Shown here in pieces: positions 6,352-30,318 of a stretch of DNA of 34,829 bases. The notes beneath the pieces are model-generated. The model worked only from the letters and a program-made list of their open reading frames with translations, did no database searches and was not told the DNA's origin. Position numbers and translations under genes: made by a program. Each line of letters begins with the position of its first letter. Within the stretch, counting starts at the first letter, position 1. Source of the stretch: Synergistaceae bacterium (lineage in GTDB: Bacteria; Synergistota; Synergistia; Synergistales; Aminobacteriaceae); NCBI GenBank assembly GCA_017405525.1, contig JAFRAH010000043.1, positions 1 through 34,829 on the forward strand. The letters are read 5' to 3'.

Positions 6352-7980
6352 TTATGCCAGCTTTATTGAGTTCAGAAAGTCGCTGTTCTTCTCCGTCTGC
6401 CTGAGCTTGTCCAGTATCAGGTTCAACGCCCCAGCCTCATCAACTCCGGCAATCCTCTTCCTGAGTATCCAGAGCCTTTTCAGTTCCTCTTCAGGTATCA
6501 GCAGCTCTTCACGTCTTGTTCCCGAACGCGTTATGTCAATCGCCGGGAATATTCTTTGCTCCGAGAGCTTCCGGGACAAATGCAGCTCCATGTTCCCCGT
6601 GCCCTTGAACTCCTCATAGATCACGTCATCCATTCTTGAGCCGGTATCAGTCAGTGCAGTCCCGATAATCGTCAAGCTCCCGCCTTCCTCGAAATTCCTT
6701 GCTGCCCCGAAAAATCTCTTCGGGAAATACAGTCCTGAAGGGTCAAGCCCTCCCGACAATGTACGTCCTGACGGTGGCACTGTGAGGTTTGACGCTCTGG
6801 CAAGCCTTGTGATACTGTCGAGGAGAATAACAACATCCTTCTTTGCCTCAACAAGACGCTTTGCCTTCTCCAGTGCAAGATTGGCCACACGTATATGCTC
6901 GTCAGCCGGGCGGTCGAACGTTGACGCAATGACCTCGCCATCAATTGAACGTGATATGTCCGTAACTTCTTCGGGCCGCTCGTCAATCAGCAGGGCCATG
7001 ATGATTATTTCGGGTGAGTTCGCTGAAATTGCCCGTGCTATTCGCTTCAGGAGGGTAGTTTTCCCTGCCTTCGGTGGCGACACCAGGAGTGCCCTTTGTC
7101 CCAGTCCTATGGGTGCGAACATGTCAACGAGACGTGTAGCCAGGTCTTTCGGGTCATACTCAAGGCTGAGCCTCTTGTCCGGGAATATCGGGGTAAGCTG
7201 CGCGAACATTGGCCTTCTCCGTGAGTGCTCAGGATCGGAGTAGTTCACCGTCTCGACACGCAGTAATGCCTCGTAGTGCTCCTGATCCCGTGGAGGACGT
7301 ATCAGCCCCCAGATAACGTCGCCGTTGCGCAGGCCGAAACGCCGGATCTGTGAGGACGACAAATATACATCGCTGTCTGTCGGGAGCATTCCCTTCGGAC
7401 GGAGAAACCCGAAATTTTCCGGGAGTATCTCCAGAGTTCCGCCACCAAAACGGTAATTCATGCTCTCAGCCTGTGCCTTGAGTATCGCTATAATCAGGTC
7501 GTCCTTTCGGATTGATGAGGGTATGCTGACTTCGAGCTCTTTGGCCAGCTTCCGGAGGTCCATTGCGTTCCTTGAGGCAAGCATGGCGTATGTGTACTTG
7601 GGTTTTGGGTGCTGGATGACCTCACGCCTTCCCCTGAATCCCGGACGCTGTTCACGCGCTACACCTTCAGGGCTGGGCATGTCATCATCAGGTTCATCAT
7701 CGGGTTCATCCTGAATTTCCGGCTCATCTGGCTCGTAGCTGTCTTCGAGGTCGTCGGGCTCGTCATAGCGGGCTTCTTCCTGTATCTCCTGAACTTCTGC
7801 GCTGAGTTCTTCGGGTGTCATTTCCGGGCTTATCATCAATTCTTCAGCTATTTCCTCCTGTTCTTTTCTTGCGGCGGCCTTTCGTGCTGTTGCGGGTGAT
7901 GCACGTTTTCTTTTCTGCGCTGTGGTTTCCTGTGATGTTTCTTCTGTGGCTGGTTCAAGTGATTTTGCTTTTCTAGGCAT
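6352..7980 (-). CDS. rho: Transcription termination factor Rho
   Basis: The 542-residue hexameric RNA-dependent ATPase releases RNA polymerase at unstructured C-rich sites. Visible elements are the helical N-terminal domain (around 130-175), the RNA-binding cold-shock fold (YRFGGGTLEILPENFGFLR), Walker A PPKAGKTTL near residue 300, and Walker B VVILLDSITRLARAS. Further on are the central-channel segments around FFGAARNFEEGGS and EEFKGTGNMELHLSR. An extra N-terminal stretch of about 120 residues, first basic and alanine-rich and then strongly acidic (many Asp, Glu and Pro near 70-105), precedes the core; such insertions occur in several phyla. The ATG at 7980 has AAGGAA upstream. Rho makes frameshifted, untranslated mRNA unstable in transcription, which matters for the phase-variable genes here. 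Confidence 0.98.
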   Translation of the reverse strand: MPRKAKSLEPATEETSQETTAQKRKRASPATARKAAARKEQEEIAEELMISPEMTPEELSAEVQEIQEEARYDEPDDLEDSYEPDEPEIQDEPDDEPDDDMPSPEGVAREQRPGFRGRREVIQHPKPKYTYAMLASRNAMDLRKLAKELEVSIPSSIRKDDLIIAILKAQAESMNYRFGGGTLEILPENFGFLRPKGMLPTDSDVYLSSSQIRRFGLRNGDVIWGLIRPPRDQEHYEALLRVETVNYSDPEHSRRRPMFAQLTPIFPDKRLSLEYDPKDLATRLVDMFAPIGLGQRALLVSPPKAGKTTLLKRIARAISANSPEIIIMALLIDERPEEVTDISRSIDGEVIASTFDRPADEHIRVANLALEKAKRLVEAKKDVVILLDSITRLARASNLTVPPSGRTLSGGLDPSGLYFPKRFFGAARNFEEGGSLTIIGTALTDTGSRMDDVIYEEFKGTGNMELHLSRKLSEQRIFPAIDITRSGTRREELLIPEEELKRLWILRKRIAGVDEAGALNLILDKLRQTEKNSDFLNSIKLA

Positions 7981-18249: not shown

Positions 18250-19757
18250 TTAAAGGCGAGAATATTTTATGCGCTCCCTGTCATACTCAATCATCTTCAT
18301 CACGTAGATGTAAAGGAAATATGTGTTTGTCCATGCATATGGATCAGAAAGAGAAGTTCCAGCTATTGCACCCACAAATCCAGAAAGTAATAAACAAAAT
18401 AGAGCAAGAGCAAGTTCATTATCGCCTCTGTGCATGTATAAACGTTTCATCATCATGTAGCACATTCGCAGAAGAAAAAATGTGCCTATCAGGCCGTAAC
18501 GCGTCATCATCATCCCATAAGAAATGTCAGGTGTATTTGCTTGGTCTATATACCCTGTCTCCTTGTCCCTAAGGCCGAACCTGAAATCATAGTTTCTGTG
18601 CCAGAACTTAGCATCACTTGTCATAGGCAGCCCCATCAACAGTTCAACCGGGCTTGTTATCAGGTATGCTCCTCTTTCAATGACCCAGCCTATACGGTAC
18701 ATGAGTGTCAAGCCATTTGATACATCGCTTCTTGCTTGGTTGAAGTCCCCTCTCATCAATGCAGATATGTCATTGGCCGTAGAATTATTACCCTTTGCTA
18801 AACGCTCACTGAACGCGTTCCCAAAAACTAGGTATATCACGAGAAGTACAGCAGCAGCTTTAAACATCTTTGTGAATGAACCCTTAAAGAACATCACTAA
18901 CAGTATACATAGCAATGACGTTGCAATAGCAGTTCTGTATAGTGTGCAAAACCGACCTGCAAGAAATACGATTGGGGATATGTACCTTAACTGTTTAGGT
19001 ACAAGTTTCTTGCAGAATATGCTTATTGGAATCAAGACTGTCATGAAAGCAGGAGTAAACAAAAAACGATATACCCCTCCAATGGCTTCTACTCCTCCTT
19101 CTTCTTCTTGGAACTTTGACATCGGAAGTATCGCTTGACCTGTGAAGCATTGGATGAGATACAGAATTGAAGCTGCGAAAGTAAGTATAAATATTATCCT
19201 GAACAACTTATCACATTCATGTTTTTTTAAGGGAACGAATACGAAAATGCTCATTAGCATCATGAATTTTATCCCCTCATTAATCACAGATGCAAATGAA
19301 AACTCTACCCCCCCCCCCATACAATGCAGGTAAACAACATTGACACAACAAAAAACATGGACAACACAAACACAGAACGCAGAATTTTGTCGTTTCGTAC
19401 GCCACGTATAATGTTATTGACGTTGAAAATGATGAAGATGAATAAAGCAACGAAAGGCACAACTCTTGTCTTCCAAGGGGAAAGAAACCCAAAACCCTTC
19501 GTACACAATGCCAGAAACAAAAAGGCTGAATACATATGCCTTTTCTGGATTGTGAAAAAGGCAAGCATTACGAGCATAAGAACATAAATTAAAATAAAAA
19601 ATGCATTCATACTTAATACCACAAAGCTATTTGTTATATTATTGAGTAAAATTATGAAATTATTATAACAAAGTAAAATGAAAATAGGTATATATAACAA
19701 ACGTAGCATTTTATCTTCGTTGCTGACTGTTATATCGTTCATATCAGTCATACCCAT
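18250..19757 (-). CDS. Polysaccharide polymerase/O-antigen ligase-like membrane protein, phase-variable, frameshifted at a G11 tract
   Basis: About 500 residues when both halves are joined, with roughly ten or more membrane helices. A larger loop region (RDKETGYIDQANTPDISYGM) before the last helices is in the style of Wzy/O-antigen-ligase proteins, which join oligosaccharide units. The 5' half (19757 to the tract) ends at TAG 19305-19307 just after the G tract; the 3' half continues in another frame from the tract to 18250. With 9 or 12 G residues the halves fuse; 11 are present. The best start is ATG at 19757, with GGGAGGAG 10 bases upstream; an ATG at 19709 is another option. DNA here is clearly more AT-rich than its neighbours, suggesting transfer. 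The start overlaps cobS on the other strand. Confidence 0.7.
19308..19318 (-). repeat. Homopolymer G11 tract inside the polymerase gene, contingency locus
   Basis: Eleven consecutive G residues on the minus strand (C on the plus strand). The upstream frame reads TGG GGG GGG GGG TAG; the downstream protein continues in a different frame. Elsewhere in the window the longest G or C runs I noticed, apart from the other two tracts, are six or seven. Confidence 0.9.
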
Positions 19758-25296: not shown

Positions 25297-25329
25297 CAGC
25301 CTTCGCAGGGCAACGAGGGCTGTTTTTTT
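25297..25329 (+). terminator. Intrinsic terminator after the glycine-rich protein gene
   Basis: CAGCCTT (25297-25303) pairs with AGGGCTG (25316-25322) with one wobble, followed by seven T residues that overlap the end of the convergent sugar-transferase gene. Confidence 0.85.
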
Positions 25330-26779
25330 ATGGCCGCTTGCTTGTCAGAATGTGTGAAGATATGATGAAGAATGTTTTTACCAATATTACGAAGTCGAGC
25401 CAGACGGACCAGTTCCGTATGTAGTAGAGGTTCATTTCAGCGCGTATGTTCTTGTCGTTGTCCTTTCGTTCGTTTATCTGCCAGAAACCAGTTATCCCCG
25501 GCTTCACCGTGCAGATCTTACGTGCAGTCTCCTCACCGTAAGCCCTTCTCAGATCCGTAATGACCAGCGGCATAGGACCTACAAGGCTCATCTCACCTTT
25601 GAGGACGTTGAAGAGCTGTGGGAGCTCGTCAACATAGAACCTTCGGAGGAGCTTTCCCGTACGAGTCAACCCTTTCCGGCCTGTGTAGCTCGTCCTGAAC
25701 TTGTACATCGTGAACGTGTCGGTGCCAAGCCCGGCCCGCTCAAGAGGCGACAATACATGTCCCCCGTCATCGTGCTTTATCTTGAGTGCCGCCCATGCCA
25801 TGAACGGCCAGAGAAATACCACAGCAACAGCAGCACCTACATAGTCCATGATATTCTTCACTGTCCTGTTCATGGGACGCATCAAGCCCTGGGACGCGGC
25901 AATAACCGGCATACCCTCAACGTCCCGGATTGATGACGAAAACGTCGTGAGCATGTACATGTCCGGGATATAGTGCACCTGCCTGACGTGGAACTCTACA
26001 ATGTCGAGAATGTGGGCGAGAAGATTCCGTGAGGCAGTGGAGATTGCTACGGCGGCCTCGTCAATTTCGTATTCAGTGTAGATTGTGATGAAGTCCTCAA
26101 GTTTTCCCAGAACGGGGAAGCCTGCAATGATCTTTCCCTGTTTTTCCGGGTCATCATCAAGGAAGCCTATAACCCTGCAGGCCGTGAAAGGGTGCGAGAC
26201 TATTTTTTCGGCGAATATTTCCCCGGTCTTTCCTGCTCCGAGTATTATGATGTTGGTTTTGAGGATGCCAAGCGCAAAAAGTATTCTCCTGAAGACGTAC
26301 CGGGCGGCAATGCACAAAGGGATGAAGATTATTGTTCCGGCGGCAAGAATGAACCGTGAGAGCTCAAAGTTTTGGGAGTAGAGATAGAGCACAGTAACAG
26401 GCAGTATCAGGGCGGCAGACTTCAGGATTGCCTTGATCTCGTCCCAGAGAATCCAGTTCCTGAAGCTGTAGAGTGAGCTGAAGTAGAACACAGCTAACAT
26501 TGTCCCCGTGAAGAACGCCTTGACCTCGAACGTGAAGCCTGAAGGTGATTTTCCGGCGAACCACAGAAATATGACCAGCCTGAAGCTGAGCCAGTAGACA
26601 GCCGAGTCTATTACAGCCTGAAAGAATGCCAGTAAAGCCCTGAAAAAATTTTTGTGATTAGACATCTCTTCAATGCGCACATGTTGAAGCTCTGCGTTGC
26701 CTGTACCTTTCTTCATGATTTTCTGTAAGTATACCATGAAAATTTTTCGGATGCGTTCAGGGAGGAGTTCCCCCCTCAT
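25328..26779 (-). CDS. Polyprenyl-phosphate sugar-1-phosphate transferase (initiating glycosyltransferase)
   Basis: A 483-residue membrane enzyme that loads the first sugar phosphate on undecaprenyl phosphate. It has four N-terminal helices (about 45-160), a Rossmann CoA-binding-like domain (IILGAGKTGEIFAEKI, GFLDDDPEKQG) and a catalytic C-terminal domain. The catalytic domain shows NIMDYVGAAVAV, MYKFRT, FYVDELPQLFNVLKGEMSLVGPMPL and VKPGITGFWQINER. The usual VGPRP reads VGPMP and the stretch after KFRT is short, so the enzyme is divergent; the key Asp-Glu of DELPQ is kept. The start ATG 26779 overlaps the pyruvyl-transferase stop as ATGA and shows no Shine-Dalgarno, so translation is probably coupled. 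It is last in the leftward glycan operon. Confidence 0.9.
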   Translation of the reverse strand: MRGELLPERIRKIFMVYLQKIMKKGTGNAELQHVRIEEMSNHKNFFRALLAFFQAVIDSAVYWLSFRLVIFLWFAGKSPSGFTFEVKAFFTGTMLAVFYFSSLYSFRNWILWDEIKAILKSAALILPVTVLYLYSQNFELSRFILAAGTIIFIPLCIAARYVFRRILFALGILKTNIIILGAGKTGEIFAEKIVSHPFTACRVIGFLDDDPEKQGKIIAGFPVLGKLEDFITIYTEYEIDEAAVAISTASRNLLAHILDIVEFHVRQVHYIPDMYMLTTFSSSIRDVEGMPVIAASQGLMRPMNRTVKNIMDYVGAAVAVVFLWPFMAWAALKIKHDDGGHVLSPLERAGLGTDTFTMYKFRTSYTGRKGLTRTGKLLRRFYVDELPQLFNVLKGEMSLVGPMPLVITDLRRAYGEETARKICTVKPGITGFWQINERKDNDKNIRAEMNLYYIRNWSVWLDFVILVKTFFIISSHILTSKRP

Positions 26780-27922
26780 TTAAGGCACTGTGAGATGAAA
26801 TCCCTGTACTTCCTGCCAGTTTCTCTGTAGGTGAAGAAATACCTCCTGTTCTCCCTGAGTGTTCCTGTTATGCTTTCGGGGTCAAAGGTCTTTTTGCCGC
26901 CTGACTGAAGCTGAAGCATCCTTCCCGAATAAAAATCCAAGCCTCCGCAGTCCCGGATGAAACCGATGATTTTTCCTGTTGATGGGTCAGTGTAGTCAAG
27001 TATGAAGTTGTTGCCGTTAAGGATTGTCTGGAAGAAAACTGAATGATACCTCATGCCGATACATGCCGACGCGTTCATGTAGCAGCTGTAAAGCTCGTGA
27101 AGGTTCTGCGGCCGGTGAACTACCTTATACCCCCCCCCCCGTATGCATATTTACGTCTAGGACAAGCCTTGCGAGATAGTACCTGTCATCCCCGCCGACA
27201 AAGAATGTGTGCATAGGTACGAGCCTGACATCCCCATATTCCCGCGAGAGGCAGAACACCAAGCTCCTCAAGTCGTCATCAGAGACAGCAATATTCTTCC
27301 CGTACTGTCCGCCGGGGTTGCCCCTGAAGTTCACAGCACAGTATTCCGGGCCATTGTATGACTCACTGACAGCCTCCTTGTAGTTCCACGCAGATATTGC
27401 CGCAGGGTCTCCGAGTACCTGAAAGCTGAACCCGTCCCCGTAAAGTTCACGTGCTGTATTCCTTGAGGTCTCATCCCTGAAGGAGATTGCAGAGGACAGG
27501 ACTAATATGTCCCGAACAACCCCTATATGTCTCCTGCTGTTCAGAGGGCCTATTCCGCAGCCCATAACTACGGCAGGAATACCGAGCTTTTCTGCAAGCC
27601 TGAAACAACGCCTGACTATGTAGAGCTCCTCAAGATCCATCAGCGGGCCTCCTCCCATTATCACAAGATCAGAAGAGGCTATATTTTCCTCAAGCTCCTG
27701 CCTGTCCTTAACGCTGAAAATTTCGAGCCTTGCTTTTGGTGCTGACCTCCTGAAAATTTCGCGCTCCTCGAAAAATGTCCGCTCAGTGTAGAATGGGAAG
27801 AGACTTCCTACCTTCACCGTCAAGTTCCCGTCAAGACCATCAAGAACGCTCAATATTCCGTCAAGTATCGCACGGTCTCCCATCGTCTCAGTGCCATACC
27901 ACCCTGTTATGCTCACTCTCAT
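26776..27922 (-). CDS. Polysaccharide pyruvyl transferase family protein, phase-variable, frameshifted at a G11 tract
   Basis: About 382 residues if joined, the normal family size. The N-terminal half has ITGWYGTETMGDRAILDGI and VIMGGGPLMD, with FRDETSRNTARELYG in the middle. The C-terminal half has QNLHELYSCYMNASACIGMR followed by YHSVFFQTILNGNNFILDY, the family's signature. The family puts pyruvate ketals on sugars of surface polymers. From ATG 27922 (GGAGG 9 bases upstream) translation reaches the G tract and stops at TAA 27125-27127; the C-terminal half is one frame off. Ten or 13 G residues would join them; 11 are present. It lies between the radical SAM gene and the initiating transferase gene. 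Confidence 0.88.
27130..27140 (-). repeat. Homopolymer G11 tract inside the pyruvyl-transferase gene, contingency locus
   Basis: Eleven G residues on the minus strand interrupt the coding sequence after ATG CAT AC. The in-frame reading gives Gly-Gly-Gly-Val-stop; removal of one G gives Gly-Gly-Gly-Tyr-Lys-Val and the rest of the enzyme. Confidence 0.9.
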
Positions 27923-27938: not shown

Positions 27939-29033
27939 TCAGCGCATGTAGGCGTTCCTGTACTGGTCTTCGAGCATCAATTTCTGCCCCTCAAGGTCAA
28001 GCTCATACATATAGTGAGAGCATGAACGGCAGAATTTTTCCCGTATCTCCTGAAGGTAGGGCATGTTCTCCTGAACTATCGAGTATGCTGAATTTTCGAG
28101 GGCTGAGCCGAGGTTCTTGCTGTGGGTTGCGCAGAAGCCTATCTGTGAGTCGGGCGTTAGGGTTATCCACTCGTTGAACATGCAGGGACATGGGGCGTAA
28201 CGTTTCCCAGTTCTAAGGAAAAGATAGAGCGCAAAATATTTCTCGCTCCCTGTCTTGAGGTACTGGCCGTAAAAGAATTCCTGTGCAAGCATACGGGAAT
28301 GCTCATCAGAAAATATCGAGAAGTCCTCAACCTTGTCCTCGTTCTCTATTCTTACGTTCACTGTGGCGATGTTGTAGGCTGCTTCAAGCCCTGTAGTGTC
28401 TGCCCACGCCTCGACCTCTTTGATCCGCTCTATGTTGTGCCGGGTTATAGTGCATATCACGCCCAGCCCGTCAACGTAGCTGCCTTTGTCCTGAAGTATC
28501 GCCTTTATGGTGTCGTTCACGTTCTTCCATGCCCCGGAACGTCCGCGGTGGAAGTCCTGCATGTCATCCACTCCGTCAACGCTCAGTGCAAGGTGAAGCC
28601 TCACGCCGTGTTCCCTGCAAATTGGCCTTATCTCGCGGAGCTTTGAGAGTATCCTTTCGCTGAAGTACCCGTTTGATATGAAGCTGAATGCCCGGAGTTC
28701 AGGGAGTGTTTCAGCCATTACCCTTATACACTCTACAAGGTCTTTCTTCAGGAACGGTTCGCCTCCATTAACGCCGATTCCTGTTACACGGGAAAACAGC
28801 TTGTCGGATAATATCGTCCTGAGCTCTTGGGCGGTAAAGTCCTTTCGTCCGGCCATGTGATGCATCCCGCACATAACGCAGTCGAAATTGCAGGCGTACG
28901 TTATCGGGAGCTGAATAGTCCTCGGATAATCTAGAACTTTCCTGCGTCTCATGTGAATGTATTTCCTTGTCCGCTTGAGTGAGTTGATGGCCTTACGCCT
29001 GGCCTTCCGGAGAATGTATTTCACGCTCTCCAT
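27939..29033 (-). CDS. Radical SAM/SPASM protein of the glycan operon
   Basis: A 364-residue radical SAM enzyme. The 4Fe-4S site is CNFDCVMC (CxxxCxxC) near residue 49, preceded by IQLPITYA. The GGEP-type motif is NGGEPFLKKDL near residue 94. The C-terminal part has a SPASM-like cluster of cysteines (PCPCMFNEW, IGFCATHS, FCRSCSHYM), which holds additional iron-sulfur centres. SPASM enzymes modify peptides, enzymes or, in some cases, sugars. In this setting, between a glycosyltransferase and a pyruvyl transferase, it may alter a sugar or an attached residue, but this is inference. The ATG at 29033 has GGAGG upstream. It has no homopolymer and appears intact, unlike both adjoining genes. Confidence 0.9.
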   Translation of the reverse strand: MESVKYILRKARRKAINSLKRTRKYIHMRRRKVLDYPRTIQLPITYACNFDCVMCGMHHMAGRKDFTAQELRTILSDKLFSRVTGIGVNGGEPFLKKDLVECIRVMAETLPELRAFSFISNGYFSERILSKLREIRPICREHGVRLHLALSVDGVDDMQDFHRGRSGAWKNVNDTIKAILQDKGSYVDGLGVICTITRHNIERIKEVEAWADTTGLEAAYNIATVNVRIENEDKVEDFSIFSDEHSRMLAQEFFYGQYLKTGSEKYFALYLFLRTGKRYAPCPCMFNEWITLTPDSQIGFCATHSKNLGSALENSAYSIVQENMPYLQEIREKFCRSCSHYMYELDLEGQKLMLEDQYRNAYMR

Positions 29034-29054: not shown

Positions 29055-30318
29055 TTAGTGTGTTCCTGAAATTTCCCGGTAAATCCCCATCAATGTGGCG
29101 AATATCTCTTCACGGTCATGTGTCCTTGATGCGTGGGATATTTCGTTGCGGGAGAATGTCCCGGCAAGCTCGTCATCACTGAATATTTTGTCCACATAGT
29201 ACGGGATCATGTAGGGCTCATCGGCAGGGTAGGTGAAGCCTTCAGTGCCGTGGGTCATCATGTTCTTCACGCCCCCAACGTCCGATGAGATGCAGGGAAC
29301 GCCAAGAATCATTGCCTCGCCGAGTGAGTTCGGGGAGTTCTCGATTGTCGACGGCAAAATGAACACGTGGGACTTCCTGAACCTCTCGCACATTCTTTCC
29401 TCGTCAAGGTAGCCCGTGAACGTGATGTAGTTCTCCAGGTTGTTCTTCCTGATTATGTCCGTGAGGTATTTCCTGTAGCTGGTCTGCTTGATGTGCTGGA
29501 TTAACGTTTTGGGTATCGGGCTCGTTCCTGTGGTGTAGACGTGAACGTCCGGGTATCTCCTGATGATTTCGGGTAGTGCCTGAAGGAAAATGTGGAACCC
29601 CTTGATTGGGTATGATGACTGGCTGATGAAGATTGAGTGCCTCTCGCATGACTGGGCTGACCATTTCGGGCTCTCGTAGAACGTATCCCTGAGCATCTCG
29701 TTGCAGTGGAAGTACCTAACTCCGGGGTTGATGGACTTCACGCAGGCCTCATCCCAGTCTGTCCTGCCGGTTATGTTTCCTGCCCTCCTGATTGCTTCGG
29801 CCTCAGAAATTCCGCGCCGCTGAAAATCCTTCTGTCCTCTTCTTATCCCCCCCCCCCCTTAGTACATCTCTGAAGGTCTTTGTGCAGAGAGTGCGTATTG
29901 GCACATTCAATGAATAGTGGTATGAATAAAATTGTACCAGCCCCTGAATGTGAATGACTACCCTTCCCAAGCATCCCAGTTCCTCGCAGGCCCTCACCAT
30001 CGCCAAGGTGTGGGAGTGTTCAGTGCCGAATATGTGAACTACATCAGGCTTGAACGACCTCAATATTCCCGTGAACTCGTCGTACTGTTTTTGCTCGACC
30101 CTGTCTATTCGTTTCTGGCTGTAGCTCCGAAACGTGATATTGCCATCCGTGAACGTGAGCTCCGAATTTTGCGGGAAGAGATACATCACCTCAAGCCCGG
30201 AAGTCTTCTTCATCCTCCAGCAGATTCCGTTGATCCAGCTCTCAGGTTTGCCGTGCTTCAGTCCGAGCTTCTCCTTGACCTCCTCCATAATGCCATTACA
30301 GAGCAGCAATACTCTCAT
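29055..30318 (-). CDS. Family-4 glycosyltransferase (GT-B fold), phase-variable, frameshifted at a G12 tract
   Basis: About 421 residues if joined. The N-terminal half (from ATG 30318, with GAGGAGGT upstream) has the acceptor-binding GT-B features (PDVVHIFGTEHSHTLAMVRA, GRVVIHIQGL). The second half carries GRTDWDEACVKSINPGVRYF, FISQSSYPIKGFHIFL and the donor-site EX7E motif IENSPNSLGEAMILG followed by PCISSDVGGV. Such enzymes transfer a sugar from a nucleotide donor with retention. The first half runs through the G tract to a TGA at 29803-29805; the second continues in another frame. Eleven or 14 G residues would fuse them; 12 are present. It is first in the leftward glycan operon. Confidence 0.9.
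29847..29858 (-). repeat. Homopolymer G12 tract inside the family-4 glycosyltransferase gene, contingency locus
   Basis: Twelve G residues on the minus strand lie in the coding sequence after CTA A. Loss of one G joins the frame to ATA AGA AGA and 35 codons later to the conserved second domain. Confidence 0.9.

Follow-up and report, generated by a model that had tools for sequence, protein, structure and literature searches.

A G12 tract in a glycosyltransferase gene of a Synergistaceae bacterium as a probable phase-variable locus, and a palindromic motif next to G tracts of the genus

The DNA analysed here, referred to as the window, is a stretch of 34,829 nt from a Synergistaceae bacterium. 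Twelve Cs on its plus strand (29847 to 29858) correspond to a G12 tract on the coding (minus) strand, which splits a glycosyltransferase (GT) gene. The 5' part of the gene (29859..30318, minus strand) comprises 153 codons and specifies the N-terminal domain of a GT-B enzyme. The 3' part (29055..29846, minus strand), with 263 codons, specifies the end of this domain and the donor domain (Glyco_trans_1_4 / Glycos_transf_1) with an EX7E motif. From the ATG at 30318, the upstream frame reads ...RDVL-R-GGG-DKKRTEGFSAARNF*, crossing the tract as A-GG-GGG-GGG-GGG-GAT and ending at a stop codon at 29803-29805, which is preceded by RGGGDKKRTEGFSAARNF. The downstream frame reads IRRGQKDFQRRGISEAEAIRRAGNITGRTDWDEAC... 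and is open until the stop codon at 29055; this half of the protein, IRRGQKDFQ...GRTDWDEAC..., is in a different frame from the upstream half. As assembled, the gene is therefore OFF. No lesion besides the frame break was found in either half, and unit changes of the tract, which lies within the open reading frame, shift the frame between two intact halves. Because the upstream codons end one A before the tract, A plus n Gs must be divisible by three, and the frame is restored if n = 2 mod 3. The lengths of 11 or 14 Gs given in a preliminary description of this DNA for fusion of the halves agree with this rule.

The same description had placed the split gene in GT family 4, and the tract, the out-of-frame halves, the donor domain and the EX7E motif were all seen. 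In profile searches, the donor domain of the downstream half matched PF13692 (7.5e-23) and PF00534 (3.3e-21), and the EX7E motif reads ENSPNSLGE, as expected for a GT4 donor domain. The proposal that acceptor and donor halves lie on either side of the tract was correct for the donor domain, which is wholly downstream, but the tract is not exactly at the domain boundary. In alignments with full-length homologues it falls into a variable loop towards the end of the N-terminal (acceptor) domain, of which 20-30 residues still follow. Residues 1-153 gave no Pfam match, yet they align with these homologues. The nearest NCBIfam model is EpsE, an exopolysaccharide GT4 sharing the donor-domain family and the EX7E motif, but the window GT scores far below every NCBIfam equivalog cut-off. 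Full-length homologues that are 46-47% identical to the window GT are present in Roseburia and Eubacterium MAGs and are devoid of a G tract. In the GT of another genome, G026, a G9 tract is located elsewhere in the gene.

The GT gene is followed on the minus strand by genes for a radical SAM protein (27939..29033), a CsaB-like polysaccharide pyruvyltransferase (26776..27922), and a polyprenyl glycosylphosphotransferase, an exopolysaccharide sugar transferase (25328..26779). The genes are separated by 21 nt and 16 nt, respectively, and the last two overlap by 4 nt. This compact row and a divergent MATE gene upstream of the GT gene bear out the earlier suggestion that the GT gene is the first of its operon. 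The pyruvyltransferase gene is itself split by a G11 tract (27130..27140, minus strand), which is OFF as assembled and needs n = 1 mod 3. A third tract, G11 at 19308..19318 (minus strand), splits the gene of a multi-pass membrane protein (18250..19610, minus strand) and needs n = 0 mod 3. This protein has no Pfam match and is possibly an O-antigen polymerase. As assembled, none of the three window tracts is in frame. When the GT gene is OFF, about 770 nt are left untranslated, and the window also contains rho (6352-7980, minus strand); Rho-dependent polarity on the downstream genes of the operon, also raised in that description, would therefore be possible.

An orthologue of the GT gene was found in genome G024 (JAFTCP010000078.1, Synergistaceae MAG RGIG3696, goat rumen). 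Its downstream half is 76% identical, and a G11 tract is located at the site of the window G12, likewise out of frame. About 15-17 bp are additionally present before the G024 tract; for this reason, its frame is restored by n = 1 mod 3 rather than by n = 2 mod 3. The gene is thus OFF both in the only available genome of the species and in G024, as would be expected if a homopolymer frameshift had inactivated it and decay had set in. Such a pseudogene should have acquired further lesions, which were not found, and the substitutions between the two orthologues do not fit either: pN and pS are 0.27 and 0.79 for the 5' part and 0.16 and 0.82 for the 3' part. Judged from these values, with synonymous sites saturated, both halves, including the part past the frameshift, are under purifying selection. 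Selection throughout a gene that is OFF in both genomes is most simply explained by an ON state in some cells. Since a similar length pattern with one third of the tracts in frame was also found in dozens of genes (see below), a decaying pseudogene is considered very unlikely. Some full-length GT might also be produced at any tract length, if the polymerase slipped on the G tract during transcription or ribosomes shifted frame there. Long homopolymers can slip during transcription, but the slippery runs described are usually A/T (PMC3711429). In addition, tract length is not conserved among orthologues, all three frames occur, and the window and G024 genes do not share a constant frame relation, being both OFF and in need of different n. 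Recoding of this kind is very unlikely.

To place the GT tract in context, G runs were counted by pattern searches in the genome containing the window (2.17 Mb, 43 contigs). Exact counts were 80 for G7, this figure being derived from window counts, eight for G8, one for G9, and 22 for G10 or more. Among shorter runs, numbers fall about tenfold per added base, by which approximately one run of at least nine Gs is expected, versus 23 observed. The length distribution is bimodal, the short runs being separated by a gap from a second mode at G10 and above, and the tracts are longer than predicted by chance. Such a shape is characteristic of tracts maintained by selection or by a process of expansion. 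According to Pfam, the genes with tracts specify mainly enzymes of surface glycans, placing them among surface or host-interaction functions. They include glycosyltransferases (GT4, GT2, a GT10 fucosyltransferase, and a TOD1/MUCI70 glycosyltransferase), LicD, a second pyruvyltransferase, a CDP-alcohol phosphotransferase (CDP-OH_P_transf), an acyltransferase, a cytidylyltransferase, and a hexapeptide transferase. A sulfatase-family protein, an amino-acid permease, and a MACPF-domain protein are further examples.

Runs of G9 or more were detected in all 41 genomes of the genus that were examined, with up to about 50 tracts per genome, most of them likewise in genes for such enzymes as glycosyltransferases, LicD, pyruvyltransferase, and acyltransferase. 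In most other genera of the order, runs of G10 or more are few, and tracts are much commoner in this genus than in most of the order. Of 95 tracts, 82 have their Gs on the coding strand. Where both flanks are coding, 17 tracts are in frame and 36 out of frame (n = 53, five genus genomes). This ON fraction of one third matches the expectation for free slippage. The GT orthologues have G12 and G11, 11 of 19 pairs of orthologous tracts from related species (flank identity 68-91%) are unequal in length, and one histidine-kinase tract has 11, 12, and 13 Gs in three close species. All these comparisons involve different species, each represented by a single genome, largely MAGs, in which assembled homopolymer lengths may be off by one in single cases. 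Errors in sequencing or assembly could thus be invoked for an apparent frameshift in a GT gene that is always in frame, and 12-base homopolymers are error-prone in some chemistries. A constant in-frame tract with small errors would, however, appear mostly ON, and the observed fraction is incompatible with 90% ON (binomial p = 6e-24). Such errors can create neither an excess of G-only tracts of at least ten residues nor a bias in gene class, the motif described below, or one third of tracts ON; this explanation is accordingly also considered very unlikely.

Taken together, the G12 tract is very probably a slipped-strand contingency locus for phase variation of a surface glycan. DNA polymerase slippage would add or remove Gs, and a lineage would alternate between ON and OFF. 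The ON state (n = 11 or 14) is predicted to yield a full GT4 enzyme of 420 residues with a glycine-rich loop, the two OFF frames a truncated acceptor domain without the donor domain; the sequenced consensus would represent an OFF state. With the pyruvyltransferase as a second switch in one surface-polysaccharide operon, at least four glycan states could be formed. Switching within the population and an effect on the surface glycan are what we infer from the sequence. Mismatch repair usually dampens slippage at mononucleotide repeats, and long G tracts also switch in Neisseria proficient in this repair. Loss of mismatch repair was considered as a cause of tract instability and dismissed, as MutS was detected in 40 and MutL in 38 of 41 genomes. 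Their presence makes a local effect in cis more attractive, without proving one.

Inspection of the sequences upstream of the genus tracts revealed a common palindrome of 16 bp with the consensus TMMGTAAWWTTACKKA, separated from the Gs by 0-6 nt on the 5' side. This motif accompanies about two thirds of the genus tracts, and one of its positions is G in 98%. Outside the held-out tests, the motif model and its placement were derived from the same four or five genomes, and genomes of relatives are only partly independent. When the motif was trained on two genomes, it was detected at 30 of 49 held-out tracts (61%), versus 63 of 1960 shuffled flanks (3%; p = 6e-30), and at 4 of 55 runs of G5-G8. 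The reverse split gave 16 of 47 tracts versus 46 of 1880 shuffled flanks (p = 1e-13). At ordinary G5-G7 runs the motif occurred at about 1% or less, and it was not seen by eye in the listed flanks of tracts from other genera of the order. In the window, the pyruvyltransferase tract does have the motif, GACGTAAATATGCATA-C (27141..27157, minus strand; score 10.5), directly 5' of G11. The GT tract of the same operon is an exception in the window genome: the motif there is weak or absent, with a score of at most 1.6, whereas the complete motif, CGCGTAATTTTACGTA, is found in the G024 orthologue (score 14.8). No motif is present at the tract of the membrane-protein gene.

The motif is alike at in-frame, out-of-frame, and intergenic tracts. 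It is present at 12 of 15 intergenic tracts, and codon phases 0 and 1 are used about equally (17 and 14), only the phase creating TAA being avoided. Being independent of frame and coding context, the motif appears to act as DNA and not as peptide. It might instead be a by-product of AT-rich sequence or of translation, arising, for example, from stop codons in unused frames or from codon bias next to glycine runs. Tract flanks are indeed AT-rich, and a [CT]AT start downstream leads to early stops in OFF frames. Shuffled flanks of equal composition, however, should then have scored as often as the genuine ones, intergenic tracts should have the motif less frequently than those in genes, one phase should prevail, and G5-G7 runs and tracts in other genera should show it as well. 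A by-product is thus unlikely. A hairpin or another RNA structure was rejected, since the arms show no covariation and their pairing is at or below the shuffled expectation; a palindromic site of the kind bound by proteins is preferred over a stem.

Homologues with and without a tract were compared in five gene families. Motif scores ranged from 3.6 to 15.3 in tract-bearing genes and from -4 to 1.9 in tractless ones, with one degraded tractless copy at 9.9. The values with and without a tract were 14.3 versus -2.4 and 1.9 for the GT87-like gene L131, 15.3 versus 0.8 and -3.9 for L140, 7.3 versus 0.0 for LicD (L139), 3.6 versus -4.0 to 1.3 for GT10 (L136), and 14.2 versus about -0.3 for the histidine kinase. 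In the latter, tract-bearing species have Ser (AGT), which forms CAGTAAAATTAC, where most tractless species have Glu (GAG/GAA). The exception without a tract is the kinase of the window genome, which has AGCAAAATC (the copy with score 9.9) and an interrupted GGGCGGAGGG run resembling the remnant of a tract. The kinase of G020 combines Glu with a G9 tract and lacks the motif. In the kinase tree, motif and tract occur in three separated groups, with weak inner nodes that favour neither repeated gain nor repeated loss. Overall, motif and tract tend to come and go together, mostly, as judged from these alignments, by substitution in place.

This pattern is relevant to the idea that tract and motif are a small inserted mobile element. 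The G024 GT gene is longer than the window copy around the motif, by the 15-17 bp mentioned above, and an insertion of about 15 nt was seen in L131. In LicD, L140, and the histidine kinase, on the other hand, the motif stands in register in place of homologous bases, nothing is inserted on the 5' side of the tract, and target-site duplications were not seen at the compared sites. Insertion of a mobile element is therefore regarded as quite improbable. An origin from a DGR-like system or a transposon was also considered and would be speculative. Carriage by phages was dismissed, as IMG/VR contained no exact match to GTAANNTTAC-N0-8-G9.

The kinase tracts are found in a hybrid histidine kinase gene present throughout the genus (L150-L179), the 3' end of which has motif and G tract in some species only. 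At this position, the tract overlaps with both the stop codon and the Shine-Dalgarno region that serves the following gene, and translational coupling, not the kinase itself, may be what it controls.

Phase-variable glycosyltransferases with homopolymers are well known from Campylobacter, Helicobacter, and Neisseria, and tract length is usually taken as the sole explanation of homopolymer phase variation. The GT gene is a further case of this phenomenon; new in this genus is the palindromic neighbour, which sets it apart from the well-known poly-G loci. We know of no such conserved neighbour of tracts in Campylobacter or Helicobacter, and searches of the open literature, without subscription journals, for phase variation in Synergistaceae or motif-flanked G tracts yielded nothing pertinent. 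The motif may be a cis element that promotes or stabilises formation or instability of the tract, or that binds a protein there. A dedicated cis-encoded module, in which TMMGTAAWWTTACKKA is bound by a dimeric protein or pauses replication and thereby seeds or keeps unstable G tracts, is proposed tentatively, with a probability somewhat short of even. If it were true, phase-variable sites would arise in genes through convergent evolution of the motif together with the tract and would not be bare homopolymers. A recurrent palindrome gained and lost with the tract in unrelated genes would make cis versus trans control testable, and with it the question of what sets the location and switching speed of contingency loci. 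Large phase-variable glycan repertoires would also be extended to uncultured Synergistaceae of the ruminant gut. The poly-G/C loci of Campylobacter jejuni and Helicobacter likewise have long G tracts in genes for surface structures and stochastic ON/OFF switching by frame (PMC4965091, PMC2823697); the genome of C. jejuni NCTC11168 contains about 29 such loci (PMC4965091). The loci described here differ by their occurrence in Synergistaceae, by the presence of MutS and MutL, and by the 16-bp palindromic neighbour.

Several individual tracts deserve mention. In the window genome, a large MACPF-domain protein (L078, contig 34) has a G10 tract early in its open reading frame, in frame as assembled. 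Two adjacent paralogous genes in G063 (L102 and L096) each have their own motif and G tract. At the intergenic tracts L070, L100, and G034:C139, TTGACAT is located about 17 nt before TATGGGG/TAAGGGG, and these tracts may vary promoter spacing instead of a reading frame. Repeats of CAGGCGTTTATCACAGGGGGGTCTC were noted in G130. In G136, from another genus of the same family, several tracts of G9 or more are preceded by a different repeat, CTCTCGACATCTGTCATAGTGC, which points to a further repeated element associated with G tracts.
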